Source: Acidobacteriota bacterium
GTDB taxonomy: Bacteria; Acidobacteriota; Holophagae; Holophagales; Holophagaceae
Assembly: GCA_016195985.1 (NCBI GenBank)
Contig: JACPYP010000004.1
Coordinates: 1-64,000 of the forward strand
Reading direction: 5' to 3'
DNA length: 64,000 bases
Part shown: positions 26,515 to 37,897 of the stretch, one piece after another
Numbering within the stretch: position 1 is the stretch's first letter
Layout of the letters: each line of letters starts with the position of its first letter
Notes under the pieces: generated by a model
What the model was told of the DNA's origin: nothing
What the model saw: the letters and a program-made list of their open reading frames with translations, nothing else
Databases searched by the model: none
Position numbers and translations under genes: made by a program

Positions 26515-26585
26515 AAATTCCACGGATTCGCACAGAGAACCACGCCTCGAAATCTGTGAAAATCGGTGCAATCTGCGGATCAAAG
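26515..26585. repeat. imperfect intergenic palindrome (thiolase-ftsE gap)
   Basis: The left arm AATTCCACGGATTCGCACAGA is roughly complementary to the right arm TCTGTGAAAATCGGTGCAATCTGCGGATC. It fills the gap between two codirectional genes and includes the region just upstream of the ftsE start. Confidence 0.6.
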
Positions 26586-26592
26586 GATTGTT

Positions 26593-27279
<687 letters not shown>

Positions 27280-30274: not shown

Positions 30275-30865
30275 ATGGCCCAGCCCCTAACCGATGCCAA
30301 GTTCGTCACCTCCGCCGCCGATGCGCGCAAGCTCGGCGTCTGCCATGCGGAGGTGGCCTTTGTGGGTCGCAGCAACGTGGGCAAGTCCTCGCTGCTGAAC
30401 GCTCTCGCCAACCAGAAGCAGCTGGCCCGCGTCTCCAAGACGCCGGGCCGCACGCGGCTCATCAATGTCTTCCTCACGGGGCCTGATCGCTGGATCGTGG
30501 ACCTGCCGGGCTACGGCTTCGCCACCGGGCCTGCTTCCGAGCGGGCCACCTGGCAAGCCATGGTGGAGGGTTACCTCACGGGCCGCAGCACCCTGCGCAT
30601 GGTCTTCGTGCTGGTGGATGCGGAGGTGGGCCCCACCAAGCTGGATCACCAGATGATCGAATGGCTGCGCGTCGAGGGGCTGCCTCACCGCATCGTGGCC
30701 ACCAAGGCCGACCAGGTGAAGCCCAGCAAGGCCCTCAAGCAGCGCAAGGACGTGGCCGCCGCCCTGAACCTGCAGCCCGGCGACATCGCCTGGGTGAGCG
30801 CGGACAAAGGCACCGGCATCGCCGAGCTGCGCCGCGAAGTGGCGGATCTGCTGGATCTGAAATAA
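30275..30865 (+). CDS. engB: ribosome-biogenesis GTP-binding protein EngB/YsxC
   Basis: 196 residues. G1 GRSNVGKSSLLNAL, G2 KTPGRTRLIN, G3 DLPGYGFA, G4 TKAD and the late WVSADKGTGI. This is the typical single-domain TrmE/EngB GTPase needed for 50S assembly. The start MAQPLTDAKFVTSAAD has the normal short N-terminus. It stands alone, followed by a palindromic repeat. Confidence 0.96.
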   Translation: MAQPLTDAKFVTSAADARKLGVCHAEVAFVGRSNVGKSSLLNALANQKQLARVSKTPGRTRLINVFLTGPDRWIVDLPGYGFATGPASERATWQAMVEGYLTGRSTLRMVFVLVDAEVGPTKLDHQMIEWLRVEGLPHRIVATKADQVKPSKALKQRKDVAAALNLQPGDIAWVSADKGTGIAELRREVADLLDLK

Positions 30866-31009: not shown

Positions 31010-32080
31010 CTACAGCTCCTCCACCTTCCCGCCGCGCCACACCATGAAGCGCCCCTCGTGGGCCCAGGGCAGGGCGATGCCGTTGGCCTCTTCTTCGTGG
31101 GTGTGGAAGTGGCCCGTGAGGAAGGTGGCTTCCGGATGGGTCTGGGCCGCGGCCCGGAAGGCTTCGCGGGGGAAGGCCAGTTTGTAGCTGGCGTTGGTGG
31201 TGCGGAGCTTCCGTTCCATCCAGGCGGACACCCGGCGGGCCGTGCCTCCGGGCATGAGCCGGAAGGGCAGCCAGAGCAGGCCCGAACGCGATAGGAGGTT
31301 CCACAGGCGGTACTGGCGGTCGGCGCCGTTGATGAGGTCGCCGTGTTCCCAGGCGAGGCGCTCGCCCTCCAGGCTGCCGCCGATGCCTTCGCCCAAGAGG
31401 TCGAAGGCGGGCGCGTGGCGATCCAGGAAATACTCCCGGTTGCCCATCCAGAGGCCCATCCAGCGCCCGGCGCGGCGGCGTTCCTTTACCCAATCGAGGA
31501 AAGCCCGCTGGGCATCGGTTTCCATGCCCGGGAGGCCCACCCACACATCGAAGACATCGCCCAAGAAGAGCCAGTCCGCCTTGGGGAACCGCGCGGTGGC
31601 TTCTTCCAGTCCCCTGAGTTCCGTTCCCCAATGGGGATCGGCCACCAGGATGAGATCCCGGGCCGGGTCGAAGCGCCGGCGGGTGCCGCGGCTCCAGGAA
31701 AGGGCATCGAGGCGCCGGCTGAACACCAGGTGGATCGAGGTGGCGAACAGGCCGAGGCTGCCTCCGATGACATCCGCCACCCAGTCCAGGACATCGCAGC
31801 TGCGCTCGGGGACGAAGCTCTGGTGCCACTCGTCCGTGGCGCCGAAGAAGGCCACCAGGGCGATGACGAACAGGTGGCGGCGGTAGAGGGGCAGGTCCCG
31901 GCGGTTGAATCGCAGGGCCAGGTCCAGGGCCCAGGCCAGCGCCGCATAGGCCGAGGCGTGGGCGAATTTGTCCAGGGGTGAGGGCAGGTCGATGCCCGCG
32001 GGCAGGCGGGACTGAGCGCTCAGCCAGACGATGGCCACGGCCAAGGCCAGAGGAAGGGTCCAGAGCCATCGCATGCGCAT
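31010..32080 (-). CDS. VanZ-like membrane domain fused to LpxH-like metallophosphoesterase
   Basis: 356 residues. Residues 1 to about 130 form a VanZ-like domain: first helix LWTLPLALAVAIVWLSAQ, then DKFAHASAYAALAWAL and the signature ATDEWHQSFVPERSCDVLDWVADVIGG. After about residue 150 comes a calcineurin-like phosphoesterase: LVADPHWG, FLGDVFDVW, GNREYF, EHGD and GHFHTHEEE, the order seen in LpxH (UDP-2,3-diacylglucosamine hydrolase) and relatives. GNHD is altered to GNRE. The continuous frame and lack of internal start signals support a true fusion. Confidence 0.8.
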   Translation of the reverse strand: MRMRWLWTLPLALAVAIVWLSAQSRLPAGIDLPSPLDKFAHASAYAALAWALDLALRFNRRDLPLYRRHLFVIALVAFFGATDEWHQSFVPERSCDVLDWVADVIGGSLGLFATSIHLVFSRRLDALSWSRGTRRRFDPARDLILVADPHWGTELRGLEEATARFPKADWLFLGDVFDVWVGLPGMETDAQRAFLDWVKERRRAGRWMGLWMGNREYFLDRHAPAFDLLGEGIGGSLEGERLAWEHGDLINGADRQYRLWNLLSRSGLLWLPFRLMPGGTARRVSAWMERKLRTTNASYKLAFPREAFRAAAQTHPEATFLTGHFHTHEEEANGIALPWAHEGRFMVWRGGKVEEL

Positions 32081-32153: not shown

Positions 32154-32903
32154 ATGATCGCCCTGACCAAGCTGTTCGGAATGCTGCTCATGCCCCTCGG
32201 CCTGGTCTGGCTGGGGCTGTGGGGAGCCGCCCTCTGGGCCTTCCGGCGCCGGGCGCGGGGACTGGGACTCGCCCTGGTGGGGTTGGCATTGGCGCTTGCT
32301 GTGGCCGGCAACGTCCAGGCCGGGCATGCGCTCATGGCTCGCCTGGAATCGGGGATACAACCCTACTCGCCGGAAGATGCGCCCTTGGAAGCCCTCTTCG
32401 TGCTTGGAGGAGGATCCCAGGTGGACGACCAGGGACGGCCTGCCCTCGGAGACTCGGGCGACCGCATCGTGGAGGCCGCCCGCCTCTGGCATGCGGGACG
32501 GGTGCGCTGGCTGGTGGCCAGCGGCGCTTCCCATGGAGCGGGCCCGGGCAGTCGAAACCTCGGTGAGGAAACCCGGGTCCTTTGGAAGGGCCTGGGCATT
32601 CCCGAAAGCGCCATCCGCGTGATCGAGGAGCCCTGCATCATCACCCGGGAGGAGGTGCAGGCCTACCGGCGCCTGAAGGCCAAGGAGGGCTGGAAGCGGG
32701 TGGGGCTGCTGAGCTCGGCCTCCCACTTGCCTAGAGCCATGGCCCTGGCGCGGCGGGAAGGCCTGGATGCGGTGCCCGTGGCAAGCGACCGCAGAAGCCG
32801 CGTGCCCAAGTTCCAACTCTGGCACCTGGTGCCCCAGTCCGACGGGTTGAGCGAGACGCAGCGCGCCTGCTGGGAATGGCTGGGCCGGCGCATGGGCCGC
32901 TGA
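32154..32903 (+). CDS. YdcF/ElyC-like (DUF218) membrane protein
   Basis: 249 residues: two N-terminal membrane helices (LTKLFGMLLMPLGLVWLGLWGAALWAF and LGLALVGLALALAVAG), then the DUF218 domain starting LEALFVLGGGSQVDDQG, with GRVRWLVASGAS, LGIPESAIRVIEEP and VGLLSSASHLPRAMALARREGL. ElyC and SanA relatives act in envelope integrity. Divergent from the VanZ fusion with a 73-bp gap. Confidence 0.85.
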   Translation: MIALTKLFGMLLMPLGLVWLGLWGAALWAFRRRARGLGLALVGLALALAVAGNVQAGHALMARLESGIQPYSPEDAPLEALFVLGGGSQVDDQGRPALGDSGDRIVEAARLWHAGRVRWLVASGASHGAGPGSRNLGEETRVLWKGLGIPESAIRVIEEPCIITREEVQAYRRLKAKEGWKRVGLLSSASHLPRAMALARREGLDAVPVASDRRSRVPKFQLWHLVPQSDGLSETQRACWEWLGRRMGR

Positions 32904-34229: not shown

Positions 34230-34709
34230 GGGGTCGCCTTTCAAAGGGTCCAGTCGCGGATGGCAAATGATGCCACAGCTCCTGGCGCTGGCCGTCCTGG
34301 CCCTGACATCGGCCGCTCCTGCGCCGCGGGTATCTGGTTCAATCGGGCCCGATCCTTCCAGGTGTGGGGCGAAAGTTGACACACTGTAAATCAAAATCGG
34401 CCAAATTTCGCTCCAGGGTGGCATTTGGGTCACTTTATTTAGAGCGGGCCTCCATGCCCGCGAAGGGGATTTCCGGCTCCGGAACCGGGCTTCGGGGAGT
34501 CTCTCTTTTGCGCGGAAGATCGCGGTCCGGCGGGCCTCGAACAGGGGCTCCCGAAGAGGGGCCGGATGGCCATGGATCCCCGCCGGGAAAGGCTCCGCCC
34601 CGAATGGGATGCGACCCCGGTTGTGACGTGGTTTCCCAAAGGCTGCGTGCTAGCTTCAAAACGATGTCGAGGGTGTTTATCTCGCGGCACCGCATTGAAG
34701 GAGAAGGCC
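34230..34709. other. divergent control region between kal and kdd
   Basis: 480 bp without a gene. A TTGACA hexamer sits at 34376-34381 but has no matching -10 at 16-18 bp. The stretch 34390-34440 is AT-richer than its surroundings. I looked for cobalamin and lysine riboswitch cores and found none. It should hold the promoters of both arms of the lysine cluster. Confidence 0.5.
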
Positions 34710-35747
34710 ATGGCGATGGGCTGCAAATACGGATCCCACCGCGTGCTGGAGCCCAGGGGCGTCCTGCCCCAGCCCGCCGCGAAAATCAGCAACGACATGT
34801 CGACGGTCTACGACAACGAGATCCTCGTGGACGTGATCGCCCTCAACATCGACAGCGCCAGCTTCACCCAGATCGAGGAGGAGGCGGGCCACGACCTGGC
34901 CAAGATCGAAGCCAAGATCCTCGCCATCGTGGGCGAGAAGGGCAAGATGCAGAACCCCGTCACCGGCTCCGGCGGCATGTTCATCGGCCGTGTGGCGAAG
35001 GTGGGCAGCGCCTTGGCGGACCGCGGCCTCAAGGCCGGTGACAAGATCGCCTCGCTGGTCTCCCTCAGCCTCACGCCCCTCAAGATCGAGAAGATCCTCA
35101 AGATCCATGCAGACATCGACCGGGTGGAAATCCAGGGCCAGGCCATCCTGTTCGAATCGGGCCTCTACGCGAAGCTGCCTGAGGATATGACCGAAAGCCT
35201 CGCCCTGGCGGCCCTGGACGTGGCGGGCGCCCCGGCCCAGGCTGCCAAGCTGGTGAAGCCCGGCCAGAGCGTGCTGATCCTGGGCGCCGGTGGCAAGTCC
35301 GGCATGCTGGTGGCCTATGAGGCCATGAAGCGGGTGGGCCCCACGGGCCGCGTGGTGGGCAACGTCTATCTGGCCGACGACAAAAAGATCCTCGACGGGC
35401 TGGGCGTCTGCCACGAGGTGGTGGTGGCCGACGCGACCCGCCCCGTCGACTTCCTGAATGCCGTGCTGCAGGCCAACGGCGGCCGCGAGTACGACATCGT
35501 CGTGAACTGCGTGAACGTGCAGAACACCGAGATGTCGAGCATCCTGCCTTGCCGCCAGGAGGGCATCGTCTACTTCTTCAGCATGGCCACCCACTTCGGC
35601 AAGGCCGCCCTGGGTGCCGAGGGCGTGGGCAAGGACGTGACCATGATCGTGGGCAACGGCTACACCAGGGATCACGCCGAGATCACCCTCTGGGAACTGC
35701 GCGAGAACCCCAAGCTCCGGAAACTCTTCGAAGAGCGCTACGTCTAA
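34710..35747 (+). CDS. kdd: L-erythro-3,5-diaminohexanoate dehydrogenase
   Basis: 345 residues. Kdd oxidatively deaminates 3,5-diaminohexanoate to 5-amino-3-oxohexanoate with NAD(P)+. The N-terminal domain (KYGSHRVLEPRGVLPQPAAKISND) resembles the catalytic fold of alcohol-dehydrogenase-like enzymes. A Rossmann segment is at SVLILGAGGKSGMLVAYEAMKRVG, and NCVNVQNTEMSSIL and GNGYTRDHAEITLWELREN follow as in characterised Kdd. The ATG at 34710 follows AAGGAG by 6 bases. First gene of the plus-strand lysine operon; kce follows after 24 bases. Confidence 0.92.
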   Translation: MAMGCKYGSHRVLEPRGVLPQPAAKISNDMSTVYDNEILVDVIALNIDSASFTQIEEEAGHDLAKIEAKILAIVGEKGKMQNPVTGSGGMFIGRVAKVGSALADRGLKAGDKIASLVSLSLTPLKIEKILKIHADIDRVEIQGQAILFESGLYAKLPEDMTESLALAALDVAGAPAQAAKLVKPGQSVLILGAGGKSGMLVAYEAMKRVGPTGRVVGNVYLADDKKILDGLGVCHEVVVADATRPVDFLNAVLQANGGREYDIVVNCVNVQNTEMSSILPCRQEGIVYFFSMATHFGKAALGAEGVGKDVTMIVGNGYTRDHAEITLWELRENPKLRKLFEERYV

Positions 35748-35771
35748 ACCGTCTAAACGCGGAGGCAAGCC

Positions 35772-36596
35772 ATGGACAACAAGCTGATCATCACCTGCGC
35801 CATCACCGGCGCCGAGACCACCAAAGAGATGAATCCGGCCCTGCCCGTCACGCCGGAGGAGATCGCCCAGGGGGCCTTCGAGGCCTGGGAGGCCGGGGCC
35901 TCCATCCTGCATCTCCATGTGCGCCAGGACGACGGCACCCCCACCCAGGACGTGGCCGTCTTCAAGAAGGCCATAGACCTCATCCGTGCCAAGTGCGACA
36001 TCGTCATCGAGACAACCACGGGCGGCGCCGCCTGGATGACGCCCGAGGAGCGCCTGCAGCCCGTCACCCTCAACCCCGAGATGGCCAGCCTGGACTGCGG
36101 CACCGTGAATTTCGGCGACGAGTACATCGTCAACACCCTGCCCATCATGCGCCAGTTCGCCCAGGCCATGCTGGACCACGGCGTGCGGCCCACCCTGGAA
36201 TGCTTCGATCTGGGCCACGTCTACGCCAGCCACATCCTCATCAAGGAGGGCCTCCTGCAGGAGCCCTACCACTACGGCCTGGTGCTCAACGTCCCCGGCG
36301 CCGCCAAGTACGAGCCCGACGTCATGGAGTTCCTCGTCCGGAAGCTGCCCAAGGGCGCCTTCTTCACCGCCTTCGGCATCGGCGGCAAGGCGAACGTGGA
36401 TTCCATCTACGCCACCATCGCGCTGGGCGGACACGTCCGTGTGGGCTTTGAGGACAACATCTACTACAGCAAGGGCCGCCTGGTGGCCTCGAACGCAGAG
36501 CTGGTGGCCCGCGCCGCGCGCATCGCCAAGGACTGCGGCCGCGAGCTGGCCCGGCCCGGCGACGTGCGCCAGATACTTCAGCTCCGCAGGGCCTGA
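35772..36596 (+). CDS. kce: 3-keto-5-aminohexanoate cleavage enzyme
   Basis: 274 residues of the BKACE (DUF849) family. Kce condenses 5-amino-3-oxohexanoate with acetyl-CoA to give 3-aminobutyryl-CoA and acetoacetate. Conserved features: [17 protein letters not shown] (metal-binding His pair), [16 protein letters not shown] and [22 protein letters not shown] lies 6 bases before the ATG. The position between kdd and kamA identifies the substrate within the family. Confidence 0.95.
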
Positions 36597-36628
36597 TCCC
36601 GAACCCGACTTTTCTAAGCGAGATTCCC

Positions 36629-37897
36629 ATGAACTACAAAAAAGTGGATTGGCGAACCATCGATCTCTTCAAGGACGTCACGGAAGAGCAGTGGAACGAC
36701 TGGCGCTGGCAGATGCGCAACGGCATCCATGACGTGGCGACCCTGGAAAAGGTCATCACCCTCACGGAGCAGGAGCGCGAGCATCTTCGGGAGTGCCTGA
36801 AGAAATTCACCATGGAGATCACGCCCTACTATGCGGCGCTCATGGACCGGGAGGATCCCAACTGCCCCGTGCGCATGCAGTCCGTTCCGCGCCTTGCCGA
36901 GCTGCACGACGATCCCTCGGACCTGGCCGACCCGCTCCACGAGGACGTGGACAGCCCCGTCCCGGGCCTCACGCACCGCTACCCGGACCGCGTGCTGCTG
37001 CTGGTGACCAACATCTGCTCCATGAACTGCCGGCACTGCACCCGGCGACGTCTGGTGGGCGACAACGACATCGACATGCCGGACGACAACGTGGCCAAGG
37101 CCATCGAGTACATCCGGAACACCAAGACGGTGCGCGACGTGCTGATTTCCGGAGGCGATCCCTTCGTGCTGAGCGACGAGCGCCTGGAGTCCATCATCCG
37201 CCGCCTCCGCGACATCGAGCACGTGGAGATCATCCGCATCGGCACCCGAACCCCGGTGGTGATGCCCCAGCGCGTGACGGATTCGCTGGTCAACATGCTC
37301 AAGAAGTACCACCCCATCTACGTGAACACCCACTTCAACCACGCCAAGGAGATCACCGCCGAAGCCCGGGCGGCCTGCGCCAAGCTGGCGGACGCGGGCA
37401 TCCAGCTCGGCAACCAGAGCGTGCTGCTGCGCGGCATCAACGATCAGACCGAAGTGATGAAGCAGCTCCTCCACAAGCTGCTCACCATCCGCGTGCGGCC
37501 CTACTACATCTACCAGTGCGACCTCTCCCTGGGCATCTCCCACTTCCGCACCACCGTGCGCAAGGGCATCGAGATCATCGAGGGCCTCCGCGGGCACACC
37601 ACGGGCCTGGCCGTGCCCACCTTCGTGGTGGACGCCCCCGGCGGCGGCGGCAAGATCCCCGTCATGCCCAGCTACCTCATCACCCAGGGCGAGAACAAGG
37701 TGGTGCTCCGCAACTACGAGGGCGTCATCACCACCTACACCGAACCGGTCCACACCACCCCGGTGCCCGACGCCAGGATCGAGCCCACCTCCAAGGCCTA
37801 CAAGGCCAAGGACGGCGTGGCCACCCTGCTTTCCGGCGAGAAGCTCTGCCTCGAGCCGGCCGGCCTCTCCCGCAAGCAGCGGAACGGCAAGCACTGA
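36629..37897 (+). CDS. kamA: L-lysine 2,3-aminomutase (radical SAM)
   Basis: 422 residues. Converts L-lysine to L-beta-lysine using a [4Fe-4S] cluster, S-adenosylmethionine and PLP. The radical-SAM motif CSMNCRHC is at residues 130-137 (Cys 130, 134, 137); it is followed by TRRRLVGD and [32 protein letters not shown] near residue 335 includes the PLP-lysine region of the family. Full length compared with the clostridial enzyme (about 416). A 175-bp gap with a large palindrome separates it from kamB. Confidence 0.96.

Follow-up and report, generated by a model that had tools for sequence, protein, structure and literature searches.

The gene at positions 31013..32080 (minus strand, 356 codons, stop at 31010-31012) of the window, the 64,000-nucleotide stretch of Acidobacteriota DNA analyzed here, encodes a fusion protein in which an N-terminal four-helix VanZ membrane domain precedes an LpxH-like metallophosphoesterase, and we consider it likely that this protein is the LpxH-step enzyme of the Holophagaceae, with a cytoplasmic catalytic domain anchored to the inner membrane by an acquired VanZ domain. 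Holophagaceae are soil and sediment bacteria, and the VanZ-type domain is known from antibiotic resistance. In the proposed mechanism, the four-helix VanZ domain would have come from the joining of two genes that the lineage already had, a stand-alone VanZ gene and an LpxH-like gene, and would hold the enzyme at the inner membrane, at the surface of which, where lipid substrate and product reside, the two-metal catalytic domain would split UDP-2,3-diacylglucosamine from the cytoplasmic side into UMP and lipid X, from which the lipid A of the outer membrane is built. We infer the activity, the cytosolic orientation (from the charge rule and a structure model) and a VanZ part that serves mainly as an anchor.

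The minus-strand frame runs from window position 32080 to 31010, stop included, and gives 356 amino acids; a mechanical open reading frame reaches further upstream, to 32335, and the conserved protein starts at either ATG 32080 or ATG 32074. A sequence-only reading of this DNA had proposed that a VanZ-like domain is joined to an LpxH-like phosphoesterase in a 356-residue frame, and this is borne out, both domains being matched and the frame being kept in relatives. The same domain pair, looked for in related genomes as that reading had suggested, was found in 26 of the 27 Holophagaceae (Geothrix) genomes in a search of 297 Acidobacteriota genomes, with a full-length match (start at or before residue 8, end at or after residue 353) in 23 of these 26; the remaining three matches begin within residues 37-48, and one of these starts coincides with the end of a contig. 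Identity of the window protein to its 25 Holophagaceae relatives is 46-78%. A separate scan of GTDB genomes retained 80 loci, 42 with the VanZ part alone and 38 with the LpxH part, the latter labeled Geothrix, Holophagaceae or Acidobacteria, and 34 of these 38 have full-length matches by the same measure. No fusion was seen outside Holophagaceae, with the GTDB pattern search reaching close relatives only. Sixty-four loci were inspected, and in each the matching stretch is read in a single frame; contig ends truncate a few of them. One orthologue (L070:2385-3281, plus strand) has a frame broken near its C-terminus, a matter of MAG error or decay.

That two adjacent genes have been mistaken for one, through a frame or assembly artefact, would agree with the separate VanZ and LpxH-like genes of same-class relatives from other families, but is exceedingly improbable: the frame is continuous in isolates and MAGs family-wide and is conserved through the junction, and on these grounds a two-gene artefact is rejected. 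The fusion is genuine, neither a chance frame nor a product of assembly. Orthologues encoded as two genes, which had been named as the sign of an artefact, do occur outside Holophagaceae; inside the family the orthologues form one frame. Since the two-gene orthologues are confined to the outside, they mark the origin of the fusion instead. Among six genomes from two other families of the same class, one holds VanZ only and five hold a single VanZ gene and, elsewhere, a single LpxH-like gene, which makes the fusion lineage-specific. The stand-alone VanZ proteins of family f2 closely resemble the fused VanZ, and 24 of the 27 Holophagaceae genomes have exactly one VanZ match, located at the fusion, with none in G182, G292 and G260. 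Judged from these sequence comparisons, fusion and loss of the separate copies most likely occurred within Holophagaceae.

The VanZ-type membrane domain spans residues 1-119 (31724..32080, minus strand). It matches the Pfam profile PF04892 above its cut-off (residues 35-113, 36.4 bits versus 30.1) and the model NF037970 vanZ_1 likewise (residues 30-105, 64.7 bits versus 20). Its four helices are predicted at residues 4-21, 36-59, 65-87 and 97-119 in an AlphaFold2 model; simple hydropathy recovers just three of the four in the window protein. The motifs of this part read DKxxH, DExHQ, R and DxxxD, and the VanZ active-site positions given in PMC12419801 are present as H41 in helix 2, E84 and Q87 in helix 3, and D99 and D103 in helix 4. 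In a 30-sequence alignment the motif residues are mostly at least 90% conserved. The cited work places VanZ in the Lipocone superfamily with predicted lipid head-group chemistry, and in its account VanZ proteins are predicted to be associated with cell-envelope polysaccharide genes (PMC12419801); the mechanism of VanZ in antibiotic resistance is described as not known in PMC7146870. A further motif, PxYxRH, occupies the predicted cytosolic loop 2 (residues 64-69; 31874..31891, minus strand); of 50 distinct fusions 49 have it, the fiftieth being truncated by a contig end, and the three same-class stand-alone VanZ proteins compared lack it. Helix 4 is followed by an Arg-rich linker, predicted from the charge count and the model to be cytosolic (residues 120-140; 31661..31723, minus strand). 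Over 30 sequences the mean number of Lys plus Arg residues is 1.9 at the N-terminus, 3.3 in loop 2 and 5.3 in the linker; the two outer loops average 0.2 and 1.2. With N-terminus, loop 2 and linker positive, the catalytic domain is predicted, by the charge rule and the model together, to be cytoplasmic, which would place the residues of the VanZ motif near the outer face.

The LpxH-like catalytic domain follows at residues 141-356 (31013..31660, minus strand), as delimited by profile, alignment and structure matches. Residues 164-327 score 37.4 bits with the LpxH model NF003743 (cut-off 134) and 25 bits with TIGR01854 (cut-off 190.35). The match is genuine, but as these scores are far below both NCBIfam equivalog cut-offs, we name the domain LpxH-like and do not file it as an equivalog. 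Solved LpxH chains match the catalytic part at E-values of about 1e-6. In the alignment all seven metal ligands listed for LpxH in PMC5016852 are identical (D8, H10, D41, N79, H114, H195 and H197, E. coli numbering), and W46, R80, D122, Y125 and N164 are conserved as well. These residues are common to all eight other fusions aligned and to nine of ten aligned stand-alone Acidobacteriota homologues, the exception having His at R80. LpxH K167 is shifted by one residue in the alignment, and the positions of R149, R157 and S160 differ. These differences and the low profile scores speak against the assignment as LpxH-step enzyme.

The third block reads GNRE (residues 213-216; 31433..31444, minus strand) and carries the LpxH-diagnostic arginine as Arg215; all 50 distinct fusions have GNR[DE], with E in 49 and D in one. 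This had been read as a changed GNHD. That reading is mistaken, since LpxH normally has GNR[DE] here, as set out in PMC3087551 and PMC5016852: the arginine sets LpxH apart from LpxH2 and from other metallophosphoesterases (PMC3087551; PMC5016852), and both D and E are permitted at the last position (PMC3087551). The block is GNRE and not the GNH[ED] of the LpxH2 definition, and the LpxG motifs GDxxDR and GNHD correspond to GDVFDVW and GNRE in the window protein. A degenerate GNHD with altered chemistry was considered and ruled out, Arg being usual in LpxH by the same sources.

The AlphaFold2 model, built with 30 sequences (pLDDT 81.8, pTM 0.82), shows four long N-terminal helices and then a phosphoesterase fold with a helical insert. 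This insert, at about residues 255-296 (31193..31318, minus strand), would correspond in the model to the lipid X-binding HI domain of LpxH; its three helices (255-264, 267-275 and 278-291) fall inside the range aligned to LpxH structures. All six Foldseek matches in the PDB at E-values up to 0.001 are LpxH. On structural realignment, rows 1-23 are LpxH with Z scores of 13.3-18.8, the next being SbcD at 10.6, and 203-212 residues are aligned to the LpxH structures of rows 1-22. Comparison with a viral structure library gave no informative match.

The source genome contains LpxC, LpxB and LpxK. The sequence-only reading had asked whether a canonical lpxH or lpxI exists elsewhere in it, and neither was found: the LpxI profile (LpxI_C, PF06230) has no match at E up to 1, and the LpxH profile has none besides the fusion gene at the same limit, which leaves the fusion as the sole LpxH-like gene. 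Eleven proteins match the metallophosphoesterase profile PF00149; nine of them were scanned with NCBIfam, no frame on L122 and L124 having passed the motif filter, and none of the nine matches LpxH at E up to 0.001. With no other LpxH-like gene or LpxI, with LpxC, LpxB and LpxK present and with the phylum-wide exclusion of LpxH-like genes and LpxI described below, we are fairly confident that the substrate is UDP-2,3-diacylglucosamine, and the fusion protein is probably the UDP-2,3-diacylglucosamine hydrolase of this genome. The earlier proposal of a membrane-tethered enzyme acting on a lipid-linked envelope precursor thereby gains support, as a prediction from the VanZ domain and the LpxH-like features.

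The distribution of the two enzymes across the phylum bears on the same step. Among the 297 Acidobacteriota genomes, 110 have an LpxH-like gene, 162 have LpxI, none has both and 25 have neither. A genome was called LpxH-like when the catalytic-part profile reached at least 60 bits, a threshold chosen after the scores were known; among the genomes counted G124 has the lowest score (67.8 bits) and is a borderline case in that second, weaker matches of 65-67 bits occur in genomes already counted, and the best excluded is G243 at 57.4 bits. Twelve genomes with weaker matches only were scored as negative, of which 11 have LpxI and one, G100, falls among those with neither. LpxC is present in 14 of the 25 genomes with neither and missing from the other 11, namely ten members of family f42 and G290, a genome of 65% completeness. 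The ten f42 genomes examined have no LpxC, LpxI or LpxH-like gene and may be without lipid A; another member of that family, G264, has LpxI. LpxC is found in all 27 Holophagaceae, including G260 (350 contigs), which is without both the fusion and LpxI. In family f27, four genomes carry LpxI and a fifth, G129, carries an LpxH-like gene instead. This pattern, like the exclusion itself, is expected if one enzyme replaces another at the same step, and the clean exclusion points to the distant LpxH-like genes of Acidobacteriota as real enzymes of the LpxH step. The exclusion may largely be a product of deep splits, and as the genomes are related they do not constitute independent trials. The Fisher figure for the exclusion takes no account of relatedness and is not read here as a probability.

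It is conceivable, if improbable, that the LpxH-like domain of the fusion cleaves some other nucleotide-linked or lipid pyrophosphate, and that lipid X is supplied by another protein, for instance the LpxG/YaeI-like metallophosphoesterase encoded elsewhere in the source genome (L115:1324-2511, minus strand), which has hydrophobic N-terminal stretches and a TAT-like stretch. Its match to the LpxG model (79.8 bits, E 2.2e-22) has a better E-value than that of the fusion to the LpxH models, and chlamydial LpxG is likewise membrane-anchored and of the same superfamily according to PMC4807358. The score is, however, far under the LpxG cut-off of 350 bits and nearly equaled by that for YaeI (65.9 bits), so that the protein is below both cut-offs; it has GNHD and is without the LpxH Arg, and its TAT-like stretch (22.1 bits to the TAT-target model, under the cut-off) would locate it outside. 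Nor does this assignment explain the mutual exclusion of LpxH-like genes and LpxI.

As for the VanZ part, its motif is intact in 46 of the 50 distinct fusions and lost in four (L026, L027, L069 and L070), which keep the membrane helices, PxYxRH and the LpxH domain. In a tree built from these fusions (64 loci, reduced to 63 on dropping L068, in which the domain start is missing, and then to 50 distinct rows) the four losses fall on four branches, at least two of them backed by well-supported branches; the positions of L026, L027 and L070 are unsure owing to long branches, and the basal L027 may represent an early state rather than a loss. The genomes G182 and G292 have no remaining VanZ match but retain LpxC and the LpxH domain. 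Because the motif is lost in these four of 50 while helices and PxYxRH are kept, we read the VanZ part as an anchor whose original task would be partly or wholly lost, with loop 2 facing the enzyme; most likely, it now chiefly tethers the enzyme to the inner membrane. That 46 of 50 sequences retain the motif points to some remaining role of the VanZ site in most fusions.

In a rival view, which we regard as unlikely, the protein has two functions: on the outer face the VanZ (Lipocone) domain would still act as an enzyme on lipid head groups or as a sensor, and the fusion would couple it to the inner-face LpxH step, for example to match lipid A synthesis to another lipid pool. The intact motif in most fusions and the conservation of its residues argue for it, as do the head-group action predicted for VanZ and its association with envelope polysaccharide genes in the account of PMC12419801. 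In addition, of the 23 LpxI genomes with a listed VanZ match, 11 have VanZ and lpxI on the same contig no more than about 17 kb apart (counted by eye), and in nine of the ten of these stretches that were inspected VanZ was found by tblastn beside a conserved lpxA-skp-bamA-lolDE run; this run also has lysS, nusB and ribH, for which reason the neighborhood is weak evidence. Against two functions stand the loss of the motif in four fusions that keep the LpxH domain, the absence of a VanZ match from G182 and G292, and the prediction that the VanZ and LpxH sites lie on opposite membrane faces. The more specific form, in which the outer-face VanZ enzyme or sensor would control the inner-face LpxH reaction through the near-invariant cytosolic PxYxRH loop, is slightly less probable again; if true, it would connect VanZ with lipid A synthesis directly and offer a way to approach its role.

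Around the fusion, the window holds an engB-like gene at 30275-30865, engB being close to the fusion in 34 of the 38 relatives' loci, an ftsE-like gene at 26566-27279 and, at 34566-37897, a lysine-fermentation-like run of dehydrogenase, cleavage enzyme and lysine 2,3-aminomutase (named by eye). An ElyC/DUF218-like gene lies divergent from the fusion at 32155-32903 (plus strand). VanZ-1 genes are reported in PMC12419801 to be associated with ElyC-like domains, and a functional link of the fusion to ElyC/DUF218 was considered and discarded: no match was found nearby in any of the 38 relatives' loci, many of them truncated by contig ends. In LpxI-type Acidobacteriota (L127-L136), a stand-alone VanZ gene sits in a conserved run of lpxI, fabZ-lpxA, skp, bamA, clpC, lolD, lolE, lysS, nusB and ribH.

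Compared with known systems, the fusion resembles LpxH in its metal ligands, Arg80, the helical insertion fold and the inferred pathway step. It differs from E. coli LpxH, to which it is 22% identical, in scoring below the curated cut-offs and in having an integral membrane domain in front, LpxH itself being described as a peripheral membrane protein (PMC5016852). LpxG of Chlamydia is a membrane-anchored metallophosphoesterase of the same step (PMC4807358), so that a membrane anchor at this step is not new in itself; as described there, a single helix is predicted at the N-terminus of LpxG, whose motifs are GDxxDR and GNHD, whereas the fusion has four VanZ-type helices, GDVFDVW and GNRE. With VanZ (Lipocone superfamily, VanZ-Skillet clade, PMC12419801) it shares the four-helix core, the His of helix 2, the ExxQ-like motif of helix 3 and the Asp of helix 4; unlike that family, it carries an attached cytosolic lipid A enzyme and an added, near-invariant PxYxRH loop, and has lost the motif in some members. 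LpxI, which catalyzes the same step according to PMC3087551 and replaces the LpxH-like genes in other Acidobacteriota, is an unrelated protein. A literature search returned no paper naming VanZ and LpxH together.

The LpxH step was previously known to be filled by LpxH, LpxI and LpxG, and an integral-membrane LpxH-like form is now added. The fusion links VanZ to a defined pathway, and the natural fusions without the VanZ motif offer a ready comparison of anchor versus activity. If the LpxH function is true, it would settle lipid X synthesis for the whole family Holophagaceae.
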